Positions 3,502 to 9,654 of a DNA stretch of 64,000 nucleotides are shown piece after piece. The DNA comes from Photobacterium angustum. GTDB taxonomy: Bacteria; Pseudomonadota; Gammaproteobacteria; Enterobacterales; Vibrionaceae. Below the pieces are notes generated by a model. It made no database searches, had not been told where the DNA came from, and worked only from the letters and a program-made list of their open reading frames with translations. The position numbers were made by a program, and so were the translations under genes. Location: contig NZ_MSCJ01000001.1 of NCBI RefSeq assembly GCF_002954615.1, positions 1,550,001 to 1,614,000 on the forward strand. Reading direction: 5' to 3'. Position 1 is the first letter of the stretch. Every line of letters starts with the position of its first letter.

Positions 3502-3714
3502 CAAAAATCCTTTGTTTCAACTTTATCTCAATGATTTGACATACAATATCACATCATCTCTTACTTATGTTTTAGTATAAACATGATACTGATTCAAAGC
3601 CTCATTATTGATTAGACGTTAATAGGATAATTTCCTAATATACGCATGGTTCAAATACGTTTATGATCGTTGCTAATGTAACCTTCATCGCTAGAGCTAT
3701 TTTTAGGATTCACC

Positions 3715-4095
3715 ATGAGCAATTTTAATCTTTATACCGCCCTTTTACCTTGTTTCGATTGCCGTCAACAAAAAGCAGAAGCAAGCTTAGGTTGGCTAAC
3801 CCCTGCTATGCATGAAGCGGTTCTTGCGCAAGTTAATACCATCATTACAGCGAGCAATGATTACCCTGATGATCTTGTTACCACTATCACTTGTTCTGTT
3901 GATGAAGCTAAGTATTACCTATTGTTAAATGCATTTGCTTATTCAGAAGAAGAAATGCAAACAACAGGCGTAGATCCAGACGACCTTGTTGAAATTGAAA
4001 AAGAAATCAAAGCAAACAAGAATGCTGATGGCATGATTGAGCTTGAACATGACATTGCGCTACAAGGCTGTACTACTTGCTGCCCTGACGCATAA
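3715..4095 (+). CDS. Small two-CxxC protein, paralogue 1
   Basis: 126 residues, no signal peptide or membrane segment, acidic. The N-terminus has LPCFDC (CxxC, near residue 13) followed by LGWLTPAM, the centre has CSVDEAKYYLLLN, and the C-terminus has HDIALQGCTTCCPD. The same blocks in the same order occur in the product of 9676-10071, so the two are paralogues. Paired CxxC motifs at both ends suggest a shared metal site (zinc-ribbon-like) or a redox pair; this is inference. I do not recognise a named family. The gene stands alone, with a nitroreductase gene 145 bases downstream on the same strand. Confidence 0.75.
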   Translation: MSNFNLYTALLPCFDCRQQKAEASLGWLTPAMHEAVLAQVNTIITASNDYPDDLVTTITCSVDEAKYYLLLNAFAYSEEEMQTTGVDPDDLVEIEKEIKANKNADGMIELEHDIALQGCTTCCPDA

Positions 4096-4240
4096 TTCCA
4101 TACTATTTACTATGGTGTACGCTATGTGCGCCATAGTCATATTCCCCCTCTCGCCTCAACCATACCGCCTTAAGACTTGAAATTACGCTGACTAGCCCCA
4201 TTTTATTAATACGACAATTAATAATAAGAGCAAAAATAAG

Positions 4241-4894
4241 ATGAACAGCCCTATTTTAGATGACTTAAATTGGCGTTATACCACCAAGAGTTACGATCCT
4301 AATAAAACCATCTCAGCAGAAAATATTGCCATTATTTCAGAAGCACTACGCTTATCAGCATCATCAATCAACTCGCAGCCATGGCGCTTTATTATTTTAG
4401 AATCAGATGATGCTAAACAACGATTTAGCAATACCTTTGAGACTAAGTTTTTAGCCAATAAACCTCACGCAACTAACGCCAGCCATATCATTTTATTTAC
4501 TCACAACCCTCATTATTCGATTGAAGATTTTGAAGCTGTGATAGATAAAAATATTCTTGATGGCCGAATTAAACCAGAGAAAAAAGACGATGCAGTGAGC
4601 AAGTTTAGCTTTGCGGATTTATACACCGAGCCGAGTGGTTACAATGCTAATTGGACAAAAGCACAACTGTATCTTGCTTTCGGTAATATTCTGCATGTTC
4701 TTGCACGATTAAAAATAGACTCAACACCACTTGAAGGTATTGACGTAAAACGTGTTGAGAAAGAATTCAGCCAAGAGTTAGATGGCTTCTCATGCCCTGT
4801 CGCACTAGCGATTGGCTACCATGATGAATCTGATTTTAATGCTCGTTTACCTAAATCTCGTATGCCATTAGAAACTGTTGTTCATAAAATCTAA
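4241..4894 (+). CDS. NAD(P)H-dependent nitroreductase/flavin reductase (FRase I/NfsB-like)
   Basis: 217 residues, the usual length for the NfsB/FRase I family of FMN-containing homodimeric oxidoreductases. Typical landmarks are RYTTKSYDP near the N-terminus, LRLSASSINSQPW (FMN-binding region), AYLAFGN-type sequence (QLYLAFGNILH), and the C-terminal ALAIGYHDESD followed by LPKSR. It resembles the major flavin reductase of Aliivibrio fischeri by eye. The family reduces FMN, quinones and nitroaromatics using NAD(P)H in the cytoplasm. No nearby lux genes are present, so a role in luminescence cannot be argued from context. A terminator follows 100 bases downstream. Confidence 0.88.
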   Translation: MNSPILDDLNWRYTTKSYDPNKTISAENIAIISEALRLSASSINSQPWRFIILESDDAKQRFSNTFETKFLANKPHATNASHIILFTHNPHYSIEDFEAVIDKNILDGRIKPEKKDDAVSKFSFADLYTEPSGYNANWTKAQLYLAFGNILHVLARLKIDSTPLEGIDVKRVEKEFSQELDGFSCPVALAIGYHDESDFNARLPKSRMPLETVVHKI

Positions 4895-4994
4895 CAGCAT
4901 GTGGAATGATAAAGTGATAGGTGAACCTTAAATAATAAGCCAACACACTAATAACATTATTCAACCAGTTGATGGTTTATTATCTATTAACTAT

Positions 4995-5030
4995 AAAAAA
5001 GCCGCTGATTAATCAGTGGCTTTTTCTTTT
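4995..5030. terminator. Hairpin terminator, left copy of tRNA-Ser terminator
   Basis: The arms aaaaagccgctgatt (4996-5010) and aatcagtggcttttt (5011-5025) end in a T-rich run. It is nearly identical to the hairpin at 8645-8680 beside the intact tRNA-Ser, forming with the tRNA remnant a direct repeat that bounds the accessory segment. Confidence 0.8.
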
Positions 5031-5036
5031 AAAACT

Positions 5037-5077
5037 TGGCGAAGAGATAGGCTATGAATTCTCGATACGCGATAAAA
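5037..5077 (-). pseudogene. Remnant of tRNA-Ser 3' end
   Basis: On the minus strand this stretch reads as a decayed copy of the 3' part of the tRNA-Ser at 8686-8776: variable arm base, T arm and acceptor strand, ending in CCA. By eye about three quarters of the positions match, with one deletion and a ruined T-stem. The adjacent terminator is also duplicated. It is either an attachment-site duplication from integration at the tRNA or what is left of a tandem tRNA copy. Confidence 0.7.
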
Positions 5078-5084
5078 CAATAGT

Positions 5085-5154
5085 AACCACCAAACGTTAC
5101 GCATAGTAAAAATGCCACGCGTGCAAATCACGCTTTAGCTATTTGTTATGTAAA
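5085..5154 (-). repeat. Truncated integron attC-like site
   Basis: Read on the minus strand just after the stop codon of the 5155-5601 gene, the sequence begins CATAACAAATAGCTAAAGCG and continues GCACGCGTGGCATTTTT, the pattern of the left half of Vibrio-type attC sites. The complementary right half (a CTTTAGC... then GTTA) is absent: the sequence runs straight into the tRNA remnant, so the site is cut at the island edge. Confidence 0.55.
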
Positions 5155-5601
5155 TTATTTCAGCGCAATGTAGACGCTAACTTTACTAGCACTTTCGTAA
5201 TGCTCAAAATCTGTTGTATAAGCCCTTTCATGCGCACAATTAGAAGAAGCAAAGTACGACCAAACAGACTGCCACGCGGCGATAACGGCAGCAGGAAACT
5301 CACCTTCGGATTCAAACTTAAGGTAAGAGCCAGATAGAACAGATACCGATGACAGCGCAACATTTGAAGAGGATATTTCATCCGCCCCCATCAAAACATC
5401 AAAGTAGCCATCAACATCAGACTCGTAATTGCAGTAGACACTATAAGCCCTTGCCCCCGATTGATAATTGATGACTAAGTTCGCATCAACGTATTCAACA
5501 TGTTTTGGTATATTCGCCGTTTCAGGATTCATCTCAATTTCATTGCGGGTTCTTAGAACTAAACCTTGGATTTCAAAACCTTTTACTTCAACAACTTCCA
5601 T
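5155..5601 (-). CDS. GyrI-like/effector-binding domain protein (cassette gene)
   Basis: 148 residues with ggag at good spacing before ATG 5601. The sequence pattern VYCNYESDVDGYFDVLMGA, then YLKFESEGEFP, AWQSVWSYF, RAYTTDFEHY and a final VYIALK matches the GyrI-like (AraC effector-binding) fold, whose members bind small molecules or, for GyrI/SbmC, DNA gyrase. It is a stand-alone effector domain with no DNA-binding part. Such proteins are common cargo of vibrio integron cassettes, consistent with the attC-like sites on either side. Cytoplasmic; ligand unknown. Confidence 0.72.
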   Translation of the reverse strand: MEVVEVKGFEIQGLVLRTRNEIEMNPETANIPKHVEYVDANLVINYQSGARAYSVYCNYESDVDGYFDVLMGADEISSSNVALSSVSVLSGSYLKFESEGEFPAAVIAAWQSVWSYFASSNCAHERAYTTDFEHYESASKVSVYIALK

Positions 5602-5613
5602 TTTTTACTCCAT

Positions 5614-5720
5614 TGACATAACGACTGCAATAAGGTGTGCCCCGCTGAACTAACCAAGCACACTGAACTCTATACCCAACAACTACCAAGTTGTAACGAA
5701 TCATCTTAATTGCTTTGCTA
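5614..5720 (-). repeat. Integron attC-like site
   Basis: On the minus strand it begins at the stop codon of the 5718-6317 gene: TAGCAAAGCAATTAAG ... CCTTATTGCAGTCGTTATG. The two ends are imperfectly complementary, with the extra bases expected for attC, and the right end has the G/TTATG crossover form. Length near 107 bases is usual for attC. The interior GTTACAACTTGG also fits the vibrio type. Confidence 0.65.
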
Positions 5721-6317
5721 TGCCCGGCAAAATAGTAGAGCAACAACAGGGTAGTACTTGCCGTCATGACTTGAATGTTTTTGGGACATATTTGGACAGC
5801 ACCAGGCTATAGCACCTACGTTAAATGACGGTAAGGCTTCAATAAATTTACTCACGTCTTCATCATTAGCTCTATCTGACTGAGAGTATGGTGCTACAAA
5901 TACTACTCCTATCTTTTCACCTTCATCTTTAATCTTTCGGACATCAGAAAGTGCACCAAACAACTGCGATTTAACCAAATTTGTATATTGTTTTTTATTT
6001 AGAATATTTGGAAAAGAGACTTTGGCTTCAATAAAAGCACCGATTGATTTATCTGCTAAATAAAGGTCATTCCTACCTTTAGAGTCTTCACCGTCATCTG
6101 CGACTTTTATGGTCTGAAACTCTTCAAGAGCTATCATGCCACTTCTCCAAGCAGCCCCAGCCAATATGCCTACATTTGCCCTTTCGTTATACCAATAAGG
6201 AAGATCATCTCCATCCCATACTGATATATAATCTTGTATGCACTCAATCCAGCTTAAAAGAAGTGACCTATACGACAAAAGGCTTTCATCACGAATATGA
6301 ACACCTGAACTAACCAT
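5718..6317 (-). CDS. Putative PD-(D/E)XK-type protein (cassette gene)
   Basis: 199 residues from ATG 6317, preferred over ATG 6329 because gagga lies just upstream of it. I recognise no named family. The stretch GRNDLYLADKSIGAFIEAKV has Asp84, then Glu97-x-Lys99, the spacing of the PD-(D/E)XK nuclease core, with strand-like hydrophobic flanks and a preceding conserved-looking Glu in YNERANVG (near 45). This suggests a restriction-endonuclease-like fold, but the motif is short and could be chance. It lies between two attC-like sites, so it is a probable gene cassette. A role in defence is inference from the motif and setting. Confidence 0.62.
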   Translation of the reverse strand: MVSSGVHIRDESLLSYRSLLLSWIECIQDYISVWDGDDLPYWYNERANVGILAGAAWRSGMIALEEFQTIKVADDGEDSKGRNDLYLADKSIGAFIEAKVSFPNILNKKQYTNLVKSQLFGALSDVRKIKDEGEKIGVVFVAPYSQSDRANDEDVSKFIEALPSFNVGAIAWCCPNMSQKHSSHDGKYYPVVALLFCRA

Positions 6318-6333
6318 TTTTATCCTCATCGTT

Positions 6334-6541
6334 TTAAGGGGCGAAAAACGATAGCTTCACGCGAAAATACCACATTAAATGCCATAAATTAATTTAACAA
6401 AAATAGCGGAGCGTTTTTCGTCAGCCTGAAACCCCTAGTTATACTTATTTTTTCTCGACGGCTTTAGTAGCTACAACAGCTAAACCCAACGATAGAATCA
6501 AAAATGCCAAGCGTTGGAAAACACTCTTAAATGCTTTGTTA
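6334..6541 (-). repeat. Integron attC-like site, enlarged or interrupted
   Basis: On the minus strand it starts at the stop codon of the HEPN-like gene with TAACAAAGCATTTAAGAG and then CCAACGCTTGGCATTTTTG, closely matching Vibrio superintegron attC sites. The right end CGCCCCTTAAAACG is a partial partner of the left arm but lacks the usual final GTTA. At about 208 bases it is long, and includes an inverted CGAAAAACG/CGTTTTTCG pair, so a small insertion inside attC is likely. Confidence 0.65.
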
Positions 6542-7681
6542 GCTTTTAGTTGTACTCTCCAACCATGAATTCATCCGTGCAATATAGTTATCAAGCTCTG
6601 CATTTTGCGAGGTAAATAGAACTAAGGTTGACTCCCAATACTCTAAGTCAGATTCATCGTGACGCTGAGGATAGATGTCTTTGCACTCAAAGAACATATA
6701 ATTTAGTCGAGATATGAAGTAGAGATCATTGAACACTACCATCTCAACAATATTTTTATAAAACACATCTAAGTCAAAGAAATCATTAAAGATTACACTA
6801 AGTATATGAGGTACTTTTTGTCTTTCGACATCTATGCTTTTAATACCAAGCTGACTACTTATTGCATCTATTTGATGCTTGTTTCCAACTTCAACCTGAC
6901 GATAAAGCATATCAAAATAAGGAGATTTGTTTACCAATGGAGTGATAAGTTCTTCAAACCTACTTACAATTTCCATTCGCTTTTCTGTGCAGTAAGGAAG
7001 CCTTTTGTAAGTTATAACGATGTCCCCCTCATATGTATAACCTTCTTCACTACAAGCTTGTTCTAGCAAGCTATTAAACTTTTTAACAAACGAAGGAAAA
7101 AGAAAATTTGGAGCAACTTCTTCGATTATTAACTCACAGGCCAGTTCTAACTCTTTAATCTTTGTTTTTGCTAGGGACAAATAGTTGTTGATCTCTTCCT
7201 TTATTTGAGAGATTCGCTCTGCTTGCTCTTTTGTTAAACTTGTATTTGAAAGTTGCTTGTCCAGATCCACTTTTAGTAATTGTTTAAATAACACCTTTAT
7301 GACCGAGATGTACTCTTCTAAATGAATTCGTTGAACTGTGAGACCATTTCCTTGATGGTATAGCTTATTTCTAATTCCATGGAAAAATTCAACTCGGGCT
7401 AAATCTTTTAAGCTGATTCCTTGTCTACTACTTTTGACGCCCTCAACAACGTCATGGAAACCCTTGCGAATTATGGTGTAACGTTCGTCTTCCGACGTTG
7501 TTGATCCTGTAATTTTCTTAGGAAGACCTAAATAGGTCTTTAGTAACATTTCTGCTCCAACATCTAATAACAGGAAAGCAATTAAGTTATCTTCTTCACT
7601 CTTTTTTCTTGCATGGTTGATAGCCTCACTCACGATTTTTACGGGCGCTTTTTGCCAAGCTTCTAAATTTTCTTTACTCAT
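6539..7681 (-). CDS. Putative HEPN-domain protein (cassette gene)
   Basis: 380 residues. Residues 33-52 (LIAFLLLDVGAEMLLKTYLG) and the following EFFHGIRNKLYHQGN contain R104-N-x3-H109, the RX4H motif of HEPN domains, many of which are ribonucleases in toxin-antitoxin, abortive-infection and CRISPR systems. A helical, charge-rich stretch follows (about 140-190) and the C-terminal half is helical without a motif I recognise. It resembles large HEPN proteins of the DUF3644/AbiV sort in layout, not convincingly in sequence. The stop codon is fused to an attC-like site, so it is a probable integron cassette. Toxic or antiphage activity is inference. Confidence 0.7.
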   Translation of the reverse strand: MSKENLEAWQKAPVKIVSEAINHARKKSEEDNLIAFLLLDVGAEMLLKTYLGLPKKITGSTTSEDERYTIIRKGFHDVVEGVKSSRQGISLKDLARVEFFHGIRNKLYHQGNGLTVQRIHLEEYISVIKVLFKQLLKVDLDKQLSNTSLTKEQAERISQIKEEINNYLSLAKTKIKELELACELIIEEVAPNFLFPSFVKKFNSLLEQACSEEGYTYEGDIVITYKRLPYCTEKRMEIVSRFEELITPLVNKSPYFDMLYRQVEVGNKHQIDAISSQLGIKSIDVERQKVPHILSVIFNDFFDLDVFYKNIVEMVVFNDLYFISRLNYMFFECKDIYPQRHDESDLEYWESTLVLFTSQNAELDNYIARMNSWLESTTKS

Positions 7682-8119
7682 CTACTTTCATCTCTAAATC
7701 TAATATAAGCTAACAGTGTATTAATAAGTATTCTTACTTTCACGTAAAAAACTCATAAAATATCTTCATCGTACTCAATATAATCTCTACATATCATGAG
7801 GTTGGTAGCATTATTTAACACCAATACTTTATGGAAGTATCTGAAAAATAAGAGGTGTATTTAATCTGTCTTATTAAATACAAAACGGAACTCAAACGAG
7901 AAAACCACCACGTTTCATTACCACTGTTTATACACATTAAATAAAATTAGTGCAAAATCACGTTAATACGATAGGAATGAGTATCTGTTCGAGATAATAA
8001 AAGGGAAAATATGAGTGAGCCGAATAACTCACTCATTTGTAAACATAAGTGCGTAGAGTACAAACCGTACAATACGCACTAGTGTTTTAGTAAATTTCAG
8101 GATAAATACTATCTCCCAT
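7682..8119. other. Gene-poor AT-rich gap with two strong hairpins
   Basis: No convincing gene is present. Two inverted repeats stand out: atgagtgag (8011-8019) with ctcactcat (8028-8036), and agtgcgta..gtac (8048-8061) with gtac..tacgcact (8067-8080). Both lie downstream of the small minus-strand membrane-protein gene and may terminate it. Near 7713-7720 the minus strand reads GTTAGC just ahead of the HEPN-like gene, possibly the worn right end of another cassette junction. Confidence 0.5.
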
Positions 8120-8326
8120 TCACTCATCTTTATTGATACCCAATATTTTATCGCACCAAGCTATAATTTTTTCAGCATAGAGAGTCAGAATACCAAGACC
8201 TAGCAATAAGAAAATGTAGATCCATCCAAGCCAGTAAAAAATTTTCGGTACATTTGGAGCAATAACTGCGGCTACACTACCAAACGACATTAATAAAAAA
8301 AATATTTCCCAGAATGCTTTCTTCAT
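8120..8326 (-). CDS. Small two-helix membrane protein
   Basis: 68 residues with agaggt upstream of ATG 8326. Two hydrophobic segments (about 5-24 and 30-51) are separated by a short PNVPK turn, followed by an amphipathic, charged C-terminus, so it is a predicted inner-membrane hairpin. I do not recognise the family. It lies inside the tRNA-Ser-bounded segment on the same strand as the cassette genes but without an attC of its own that I can see. Confidence 0.65.
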   Translation of the reverse strand: MKKAFWEIFFLLMSFGSVAAVIAPNVPKIFYWLGWIYIFLLLGLGILTLYAEKIIAWCDKILGINKDE

Positions 8327-8644
8327 AGCAAACCTCTAACTTTAGTTAATAGAACACCAACGTTAGCATGCCTTTTTTATTTCCAAAGTCAGCGTACTGC
8401 GACCTTACAAGCTCGCTTGGGATGCTTATTTAATAGAAATGGCAGTAATGAATTTTCAGACATAAGCGGTTATGCAGTTGCCACAATTAAAACTAATCGT
8501 CTTAGGAAAAGTAAAGGTAGCAGTAGCACTTATTACAGACATTGCTCTAGATAAAGAAGGTATGTAATAAATACAGGAAAGTAGTTTGTTTTGAACTCTT
8601 TGTATCACTCCATTGGCATGAGTAGTTTCAATACTCTAGATACA
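8327..8644. other. Gap with no supported gene
   Basis: An intergenic stretch between the membrane-protein gene and the tRNA-Ser terminator. A 31-codon plus-strand frame from ATG 8472 has no good ribosome site. I see no integrase remnant. Confidence 0.5.
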
Positions 8645-8680
8645 AAAAAGCCGCTGATTAATCAGCGGCTTTTTCGTTTT
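8645..8680. terminator. tRNA-Ser terminator, right copy
   Basis: The arms aaaaagccgctgatt (8645-8659) and aatcagcggcttttt (8660-8674) are perfect. It lies six bases past the CCA end of the minus-strand tRNA-Ser and is the intact counterpart of the hairpin at 4995-5030. Confidence 0.85.
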
Positions 8681-8685
8681 AAATA

Positions 8686-8776
8686 TGGCGGAGAGATAGG
8701 GATTTGAACCCTAGATACGCTATAAACGTATGCCGGTTTTCAAGACCGGTGCTTTCAACCACTCAGCCATCTCTCC
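8686..8776 (-). tRNA. tRNA-Ser (anticodon UGA)
   Basis: On the minus strand, acceptor ggagagat pairs with atctctcc and is followed by an encoded CCA. The anticodon loop CTTGAAA gives anticodon TGA. A long variable arm (atacg/cgtat) marks class II serine tRNA, and the T arm aggg-TTCAAAT-ccct is intact. Its 3' end faces the accessory segment at 5.0-8.7 kb. Confidence 0.96.
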
Positions 8777-8862
8777 ATGGCGCGAATAGTAGCGAAGTGA
8801 ATACCGAGTGTAAATAGTAGTAAGTGTTATCTGGACAGTCTTTAATCGAATTTAACGGATTA

Positions 8863-9654
8863 TTATTTTGGAACACCGCAATCTGTTAAAAAACGTTCAA
8901 AACCGTATTTTTCTAGCCATTCCAATTGTTCAGTGGAACTCACTAAGAAGCGACCAATAAAATTAACCCCATGCCCTTTTATTTCGCCAACTTGATTCTT
9001 TGTACGAGGAATAAGCAACATCCAGCGTTGCGTTAATAATATATTATACGGGTGACATTCTGTTAAACCATTGATACTCGATGTCATATACAGCTGCATT
9101 GATTCCATAACCGACAAGTAATGCTGGTAGAGTTCTGCTGCATTCAAATATTCGAATATTATCAAGTCATGTTTAAAGGGTAATAGACCCTGAAGAATTG
9201 TCTTTTCTAATGGCAGTGATGTTCTAATTAGCTGCATATGCCTATGCATTTGACTAGAACCTGCTATCGCACCTGAATTAAAAAAACCTAAGACGCTATC
9301 ATCCGTTATTCCTTGTACCCAAGCTTCAAAATCTTTTAAAACTAATGGCGACGTTTGAGGAATATAATTTTTCGCACAGATAAGTAGATGCGGAACAACA
9401 ATAGGAAATTTATTTAATAAACAAACGTGTTGTTCTCCAATCGTGTTGATATATGCTGAGGGATTATAAGGTGATACAAACGGATCATGAGTTGCTACAG
9501 ATGGAGAATGTTTAACTTTCATATTCTCTGTTTCTACATTAACAATGAACTCTATCCCATTTTGCTCAATGATAAGATCGTTTGTTATTAACGGTAGTAA
9601 CTCACCAGACGCTAATCCCTTGTTTGACTTTTCATAACCGATATCCCACAGCAT
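8863..9654 (-). CDS. Ap4A phosphorylase/ATP adenylyltransferase-like protein
   Basis: 263 residues. The motif NSGAIAGSSQMHRHMQLI matches the HIT-superfamily active site of Ap4A phosphorylases (HxHxQ, here HRHMQ), and HVCLLNKFPIVVPHLLI before it and PYNILLTQRWMLLIPR after it fit the same fold. Known enzymes cleave diadenosine tetraphosphate with phosphate to ATP and ADP, or run the reverse. It is a probable cytoplasmic nucleotidyltransferase. It lies 21 bases after the 9676-10071 gene on the same strand, with aaagga before its ATG, so the two probably form an operon. The link between a two-CxxC protein and Ap4A metabolism is not known to me. Confidence 0.8.
   Translation of the reverse strand: MLWDIGYEKSNKGLASGELLPLITNDLIIEQNGIEFIVNVETENMKVKHSPSVATHDPFVSPYNPSAYINTIGEQHVCLLNKFPIVVPHLLICAKNYIPQTSPLVLKDFEAWVQGITDDSVLGFFNSGAIAGSSQMHRHMQLIRTSLPLEKTILQGLLPFKHDLIIFEYLNAAELYQHYLSVMESMQLYMTSSINGLTECHPYNILLTQRWMLLIPRTKNQVGEIKGHGVNFIGRFLVSSTEQLEWLEKYGFERFLTDCGVPK

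Follow-up and report, generated by a model that had tools for sequence, protein, structure and literature searches.

An HEPN-fold and a PD-(D/E)XK-fold protein encoded in a probable short cassette array of Photobacterium angustum: candidate stand-alone effectors and a repeated leader sequence

Introduction

Antiphage genes carried as integron cassettes are already known (Darracq 2025, Kieffer 2025, and Getz, as covered by the review PMC12409362), and both the membership criteria of the HEPN superfamily and the occurrence of HEPN proteins in integron cassettes were described by Anantharaman 2013 (PMC3710099). Nuclease folds are also present among the DefensePredictor-validated systems, of which 13 contain PD-(D/E)XK and four contain HEPN (PMC13092281). 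Statements on published systems refer, here and below, to excerpts of the cited sources. In this study, we analyzed a stretch of 64,000 nucleotides from the marine bacterium Photobacterium angustum (contig NZ_MSCJ01000001.1, positions 1,550,001 to 1,614,000 of the forward strand; hereafter the window), in which two adjacent genes encode a protein of 380 amino acids (aa), likely an RNA-cutting enzyme of the HEPN type, and a protein of 199 aa, likely a DNA-cutting enzyme of the PD-(D/E)XK type.

The 380-aa protein shares the four-helix fold, an Rx4H motif with N, and an Ex3K motif with the HEPN ribonucleases (RNases) of defence and toxin systems, such as HepT, Csm6, the HEPN domain of AbiA, and the integron cassette HEPN protein, but it has a C-terminal part of its own and no sequence match to any PDB chain at E ≤ 0.1. 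Judged by their descriptions, single-gene DefensePredictor proteins share effector folds with both window proteins and are otherwise unrelated to them; the 199-aa nuclease belongs to a sequence family of its own with the signature WYNE(R/Q)A, and no separate sensor domain was seen within its 199 aa. Like the antiphage integron cassettes, both genes are single-gene, attC-ended, and from Vibrionaceae. Unlike those integrons, the locus is a short array at a tRNA-Ser gene, in a genome without an integrase scoring over the cut-off. Clusters of attC sites without an integron integrase are known as CALIN (PMC9024848), which the locus resembles by its several attC-like sites; in contrast to CALIN as described there, scattered loci here open with a common leader sequence. 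Cassettes are also placed outside the integron by insertion into attG sites (Loot 2024, via PMC12901181); attG sites are described as divergent, whereas the leader is a conserved repeat of ~105 to 420 bases. As far as our searches of the open-licence literature show, the two protein families as defence candidates and the repeated leader are new.

Two unnamed nuclease families join the cassette-borne defence candidates and, being single genes, can be tested one by one. In integrons, the first cassette is highly expressed, while distant ones are presumably expressed little or not at all; the use of unexpressed defence cassettes is left open, with one array expressed at high cell density (PMC12409362). 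Leader sites dispersed over the genome, each providing its own first position, would, if true, answer this question differently. The leader also provides a simple handle for listing captured genes in Photobacterium.

Results and Discussion

Predicted Folds and Conserved Residues of the Two Proteins

We consider it fairly likely that the locus represents a short array of cassettes that lacks an integrase of its own and lies in a variable site beside a tRNA-Ser gene, and that its two enzymes were acquired separately and work separately; each of them is probably best read as a stand-alone effector with an antiphage role. A first-pass annotation, made from the letters of the window, had pointed to RNKLYH in the 380-aa protein and to D84-x12-E97-x-K99 in the 199-aa protein, and both open reading frames (ORFs) and motifs are present as claimed. 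The motifs alone were rejected as evidence, as their frequency in shuffled sequences is near chance: among composition shuffles of the 380-aa sequence, 29.5% contain RX4H and 4.1% R[NDH]X3H, and among those of the 199-aa sequence, 5.2% contain D-x12-E-x-K and 77% the loose pattern D..[DE]xK. They become significant because they are conserved across homologues.

A sequence search with the HEPN protein returned 52 proteins, the named full-length relatives coming nearly all from marine Gammaproteobacteria, including one at 76% from Photobacterium sp. J15. Across the 33 matches taken into the alignment, R104, N105, Y108, and H109 (within RNKLYH, R104–H109) are kept in every sequence, as are E44 and K48 in all 32 homologues covering them. 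In the predicted structure, the HEPN domain spans residues 6–139, with E44-x3-K48 in helix 2 and R104-N105-x3-H109 at the end of helix 3 (residues 91–110), and the remainder forms a long, mostly helical C-terminal part. The protein hence combines the four-helix fold with the two motifs that define the superfamily, i.e., Rx4-6H with a polar residue after R, and Ex3[KR] in helix 2, and the fold search agrees with the structure prediction in supporting the HEPN assignment. When compared with PDB sequences, the alignment retrieved three designed binders at E 0.12–0.14, and the integron cassette HEPN structure 3jrt was absent both from these sequence matches and from the listed fold matches.

A profile of distant HEPN relatives matched 1,029 proteins among 7,993 scored candidates; 120 of these matches were listed, chiefly ~245 aa in length. 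Among those listed, 116 of the 117 checked relatives of 200–290 aa carry a second R[NH]x3H motif beyond residue 150 in place of the C-terminal part of the window protein, and most listed members of this ~245-aa family with two HEPN-like motifs are unnamed. C-terminal kinship between the window protein and these short relatives was rejected (hhalign probability 0.4%). The HEPN module is accordingly paired with at least two different C-terminal parts, which is what would be expected of an effector with exchangeable sensors.

The longest ORF of the nuclease gene (203 aa, 5718–6329, minus strand) contains a second ATG at 6317, which is the likely start because the database entry comprises 199 aa and the first ATG falls within an attC-like stretch. 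The sequence search yielded 87 proteins, 44 of which were aligned, and E45, D84, E97, and K99 are invariant in all 44. The predicted structure holds the PD-(D/E)XK core, with D and (D/E)xK on neighboring strands, so that the fold proposed from the letters is borne out here as well. Against PDB sequences, the nuclease alignment, like that of the HEPN protein, found only designed or apparently unrelated proteins, and Foldseek alone gave no PDB match at E ≤ 0.001 for either model. The earlier remark that neither protein falls into a nameable family also holds, with no match in Pfam, PADLOC, or NCBIfam at E ≤ 0.001 (best 0.042).

From these features, we infer how the two enzymes might work. The HEPN protein would most likely be a metal-independent RNase that is activated only once its C-terminal part detects a trigger, e.g., phage infection, and that would then cut RNA and halt growth. 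Since no methyltransferase was seen beside its gene (none among the six neighboring ORFs scanned, and hence no type II restriction–modification arrangement), the PD-(D/E)XK protein would most likely be a stand-alone DNA endonuclease against foreign or modified DNA. The two genes would have come in as separate cassettes, on the minus strand in the order leader, HEPN gene, two attC-like stretches, PD-(D/E)XK gene, attC-like stretch, Cass2 gene, attC-like site (Table 1).

attC-Like Sites and the Variable tRNA-Ser Site

For the detection of attC sites, we used a covariance model of 15 sites chosen by eye, 13 from the Vibrio plasmid p1ST2 and two from the P. angustum genome itself; a model without base pairs was kept only as a cross-check. 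A scan of the whole window identified the sites at the ends of the Cass2 and HEPN genes, and these together with the two weaker stretches on either side of the nuclease gene were the top four of 26 matches in an unfiltered scan of positions 4900–8860. All four lie on the minus strand, between genes or at gene ends, so that two strong and two weak attC-like stretches punctuate the genes. Over ~55 bases, the site at the HEPN gene end is 84% similar to a segment of contig C3 taken as attC and itself included in the model. Regarding the weak stretches, the one upstream of the nuclease gene reached E 0.11 in the 64-kb scan and E 6.9e-6 with the sequence-only model, and the one at the nuclease gene end was not listed in the 64-kb scan. 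With two or more attC sites and no integrase over the cut-off (six TIGR02249 matches in the genome, all below it), the locus has the make-up of a CALIN; the recombinase would act in trans, have been lost, or be too divergent for the model.

Comparison with relatives provides evidence for cassettes that is independent of the attC model. The close relative G477 aligns over 3601–5623 (96%) and from 8353 on (97%), and ~280 other bases replace the interval in between. Both the HEPN and the nuclease gene are missing there, the Cass2 gene is kept, and the break at 5623 lies near the end of the attC-like stretch at the nuclease gene end. At the same site, other relatives carry, by eye, a chemotaxis-like gene (G415 and G463), a transposase-like set (G487), or a GNAT-like gene (G470). 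The site is bounded by the tRNA-Ser gene and a direct copy of its end, which points either to an earlier insertion event at the tRNA or to the loss of a tandem tRNA. Beside several cassettes elsewhere (L077, L078, L030), another repeated stretch of ~100 bases was noticed by eye; it is perhaps a second attC type of the genus.

Table 1. Features of the cassette locus in the P. angustum window.
Feature	Position	Strand	Evidence
HEPN-fold protein gene, 380 aa	6539..7681	-	ORF list, homologue alignment, predicted structure, fold search
PD-(D/E)XK nuclease-fold protein gene, 199 aa	5718..6317	-	Alignment, predicted structure, fold search; longest ORF extends to 6329
Cass2 (integron-associated effector-binding protein) gene, third cassette	5155..5601	-	PF14526, 2.9e-14
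attC-like site, HEPN gene end; 5' half clear, 3' half decayed	6454..6543	-	26.4 bits, E 6.3e-4 in 64 kb
Second attC-like stretch between HEPN and nuclease genes (weak)	6325..6443	-	17.0 bits, E 0.0071 in 3,961 bases
attC-like stretch, nuclease gene end (weak)	5618..5722	-	13.6 bits, E 0.044 in 3,961 bases
attC-like site, Cass2 gene end; 3' half runs into tRNA-Ser remnant	5029..5150	-	47.5 bits, E 5.7e-9
Repeated leader upstream of HEPN gene; core 7711-7740; far end approximate	7711..8036	-	Sequence searches
tRNA-Ser(TGA), one bound of variable site	8686..8776	-	
Direct copy of tRNA-Ser terminator and 3' end (8641-8726), other bound of variable site	4992..5076	.	84%, 72/86

A Repeated Leader with a Sharp Boundary

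At the upstream boundary of the HEPN gene, 34 bases recur in G470 ahead of the GNAT-like gene, and the same boundary sequence recurs over 110 bases elsewhere in the P. angustum genome. This genome contains 17 leader places at E ≤ 1, the first 12 of which were carried on; with a second copy as query, at least 13 copies, including that of the window, were found at E ≤ 1e-6. In the genus, at least 97 places in at least 17 of 52 genomes were detected at the same threshold (1 to 16 per genome), these counts being lower bounds because at most 16 candidates were scored per genome. The junctions were analyzed at 42 loci, i.e., the 12 from P. angustum and 30 of the 97 genus places; as L087, L088, and L103 resolve to one junction, they represent 40 distinct copies. 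Pairwise matches among ten copies of the own genome extend back up to ~420 bases; of 44 matches, 37 stop no more than 4 bases from G|TTA and seven at a distance of 8–17 bases. Mean information over the 40 distinct copies drops from 1.44 bits per position at −40 to −1 to 0.20 at +3 to +40.

Different genes begin close to this boundary. At 37 of the 42 loci (35 of the 40 distinct copies), an ORF that is 50 aa or longer begins no more than 70 bases after the leader, compared to 24.8% of 1,719 random positions. We scanned 29 of the 35 distinct downstream ORFs against Pfam, counting families without assigning them to single proteins. DUF4062, DUF4268, putAbiC, HNH_2, DUF2971, DUF4238, and PDDEXK_4, each found in one downstream protein, are presumably defence- or nuclease-type families; the further families comprise UPF0060, Metallophos, Metallophos_2, AAA_33, Cupin_2, and Glyoxalase. 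At ten loci, the following gene ends directly in an attC match (L086, L089, L093, L094, L109, L112, L119, L122, L124, and L127; E ≤ 0.0051), with a weak match at L095. The leader is furthermore present in 12 named plasmid records, ten from Photobacterium and two from one Vibrio campbellii strain, seven of the 12 being typed as conjugative. In all six plasmids that were opened, a different annotated gene follows the leader (within 30 bases in five), one of them encoding a protein of the HEPN-type family DUF4145. The leader core was also detected in two viral contigs.

In integrons, cassettes are inserted into a double-stranded attI site by recombination at a G|TT. The sharp leader boundary, the attC matches at some gene ends, and the strain-variable content of the tRNA-Ser site fit such a scheme, and the leader copies look like scattered attI-like capture sites. 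It is nevertheless possible, if rather doubtful, that the leader is the end of a mobile element or a repeated regulatory sequence that merely precedes genes. Several observations weigh in that direction: 30 of the 40 distinct copies lack a clear attC at the end of the following gene (as judged with the Vibrio-type model), which calls for caution; the GTTA end is missing from one weak, partial copy (L098); no similarity was found between the leader and the region upstream of a recombinase in G525; and, as mentioned, no integrase over the cut-off is present in the own genome. The leader also does not fold as an attC (z-scores of −0.1 to −0.6), although folding does not decide its nature, as a genuine attC scores only −0.7. 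An element end or regulatory repeat is opposed by the loss of information at G|TTA, the excess of nearby ORF starts over random positions, and the ten loci with an attC-ended gene. The leader as a remnant of an integrase gene was rejected (no tblastn match better than E 2.1), and a promoter scan was uninformative (8 sites vs. 13.3 in shuffles).

Building on the attI-like reading, we tentatively suggest that Photobacterium might harbor a distributed integron. The conserved leader, present at least twelve times in some genomes and also found on plasmids, would provide separate landing places for one or a few cassettes each. A fair share of the captured genes would likely encode antiphage effectors, banked at many first positions rather than in one long, mostly silent array.

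Neighborhoods of Homologues and Possible Roles

A defence role, as put forward in the first-pass annotation, is plausible in view of the genes next to homologues. For these, chosen neighbors were scanned, and gene names given by eye come from no search. Three of six nuclease relatives have defence genes as neighbors: L024 adjoins McrC and an AAA ATPase, L023 lies near a PDC-S37/Hhe helicase, and L085 is part of a cassette array with a ThsB-like TIR gene. No clear defence gene was found among the three and two neighbors scanned for L022 and L084, respectively. Among the HEPN relatives, L002 adjoins an AbiGi homologue, while the single neighbors scanned for L003 and L004 gave no match. L025 (G525) is located between attC matches, close to a 326-aa tyrosine recombinase that, by eye, looks like an integron integrase. 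A Moritella copy of the HEPN gene is interrupted by stops.

An alternative function in growth control has to be considered for the HEPN protein, which could be the toxin of a toxin–antitoxin or stress-dormancy cassette that stabilizes the array or slows growth. HepT toxins are among the nearest folds of the predicted structure, and integron-cassette HEPN proteins were proposed to induce dormancy (PMC3710099). We regard this as unlikely, since no MNT-type nucleotidyltransferase domain, as in HEPN-MNT toxin–antitoxin pairs, was found among the six neighboring ORFs scanned, and since the protein, at 380 aa and with its long, conserved C-terminal part, does not resemble a small HepT toxin. The Ap4A phosphorylase encoded at 8863–9654, beyond the tRNA-Ser gene, is of another kind than MNT.

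Similarly improbable is a role of the PD-(D/E)XK protein in DNA repair, recombination, or mobile-element upkeep instead of defence. It would be in line with Hjc resolvases among the structural matches, and with a nuclease relative on a viral contig (L074/L075) that, by eye, sits between a putative integrase and a terminase. The defence genes beside half of the relatives and the very patchy distribution of the nuclease speak against such a role. Phage origin of both genes was rejected, with no match in phage records; nuclease relatives occur in two viral contigs, apparently of the same element, HEPN relatives in none, and a PHROGs scan gave nothing better than E 0.0023.

As a separate observation, the nuclease relative L024 belongs to an island in G061 (5872–14918 of L024) in which McrBC-type genes, the nuclease relative, a RiboL-PSP HEPN gene, a MoxR ATPase gene, and a VWA protein gene follow in a row on one strand.

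Probable Separate Cassettes rather than a Gene Pair

We examined how often the two genes occur together. At the order level, three of 394 genomes matched the HEPN profile and six the nuclease profile (three of the latter being weak partial matches, E 3.3e-4 to 7.0e-4), and at the family level, three and two of 247 genomes did so, respectively; in both sets, only the own genome had both. At the class level, two of 229 genomes matched the nuclease profile, the own genome included. Within the 52 genus genomes, only the own genome appears to have either gene; elsewhere in the genus, the HEPN gene is also present, as shown by the J15 protein. When the loci retrieved for relatives were cross-searched, none outside the own genome had both families. 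With so few carriers, the zero co-occurrence excludes tight linkage and would not suffice to reveal a weak association.

A genuine two-gene defence system, e.g., a sensor and a killer selected together, is very unlikely: the genes are adjacent, on the same strand, both of nuclease fold, and jointly missing from G477, but attC-like stretches separate them, each family is also found alone as a cassette, and neither the genome sets, few as the carriers are, nor the relatives' loci contain the pair a second time. The co-occurrence check thus gave no support to the pair that the first-pass annotation had offered as one option, and it is the other option, two independent effectors, that survives. 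What remains of its possible defence module are both folds, the lack of a named family, the plausible defence role, and the mobile setting, which is supported by the attC-like sites and the absence from G477; the two-gene system falls away.

A last observation concerns a 68-aa ORF without a Pfam family at 8120–8326. As its surroundings (7954–8463) match the relative G487 at 85%, it is assigned to the variable region, outside the two cassettes.
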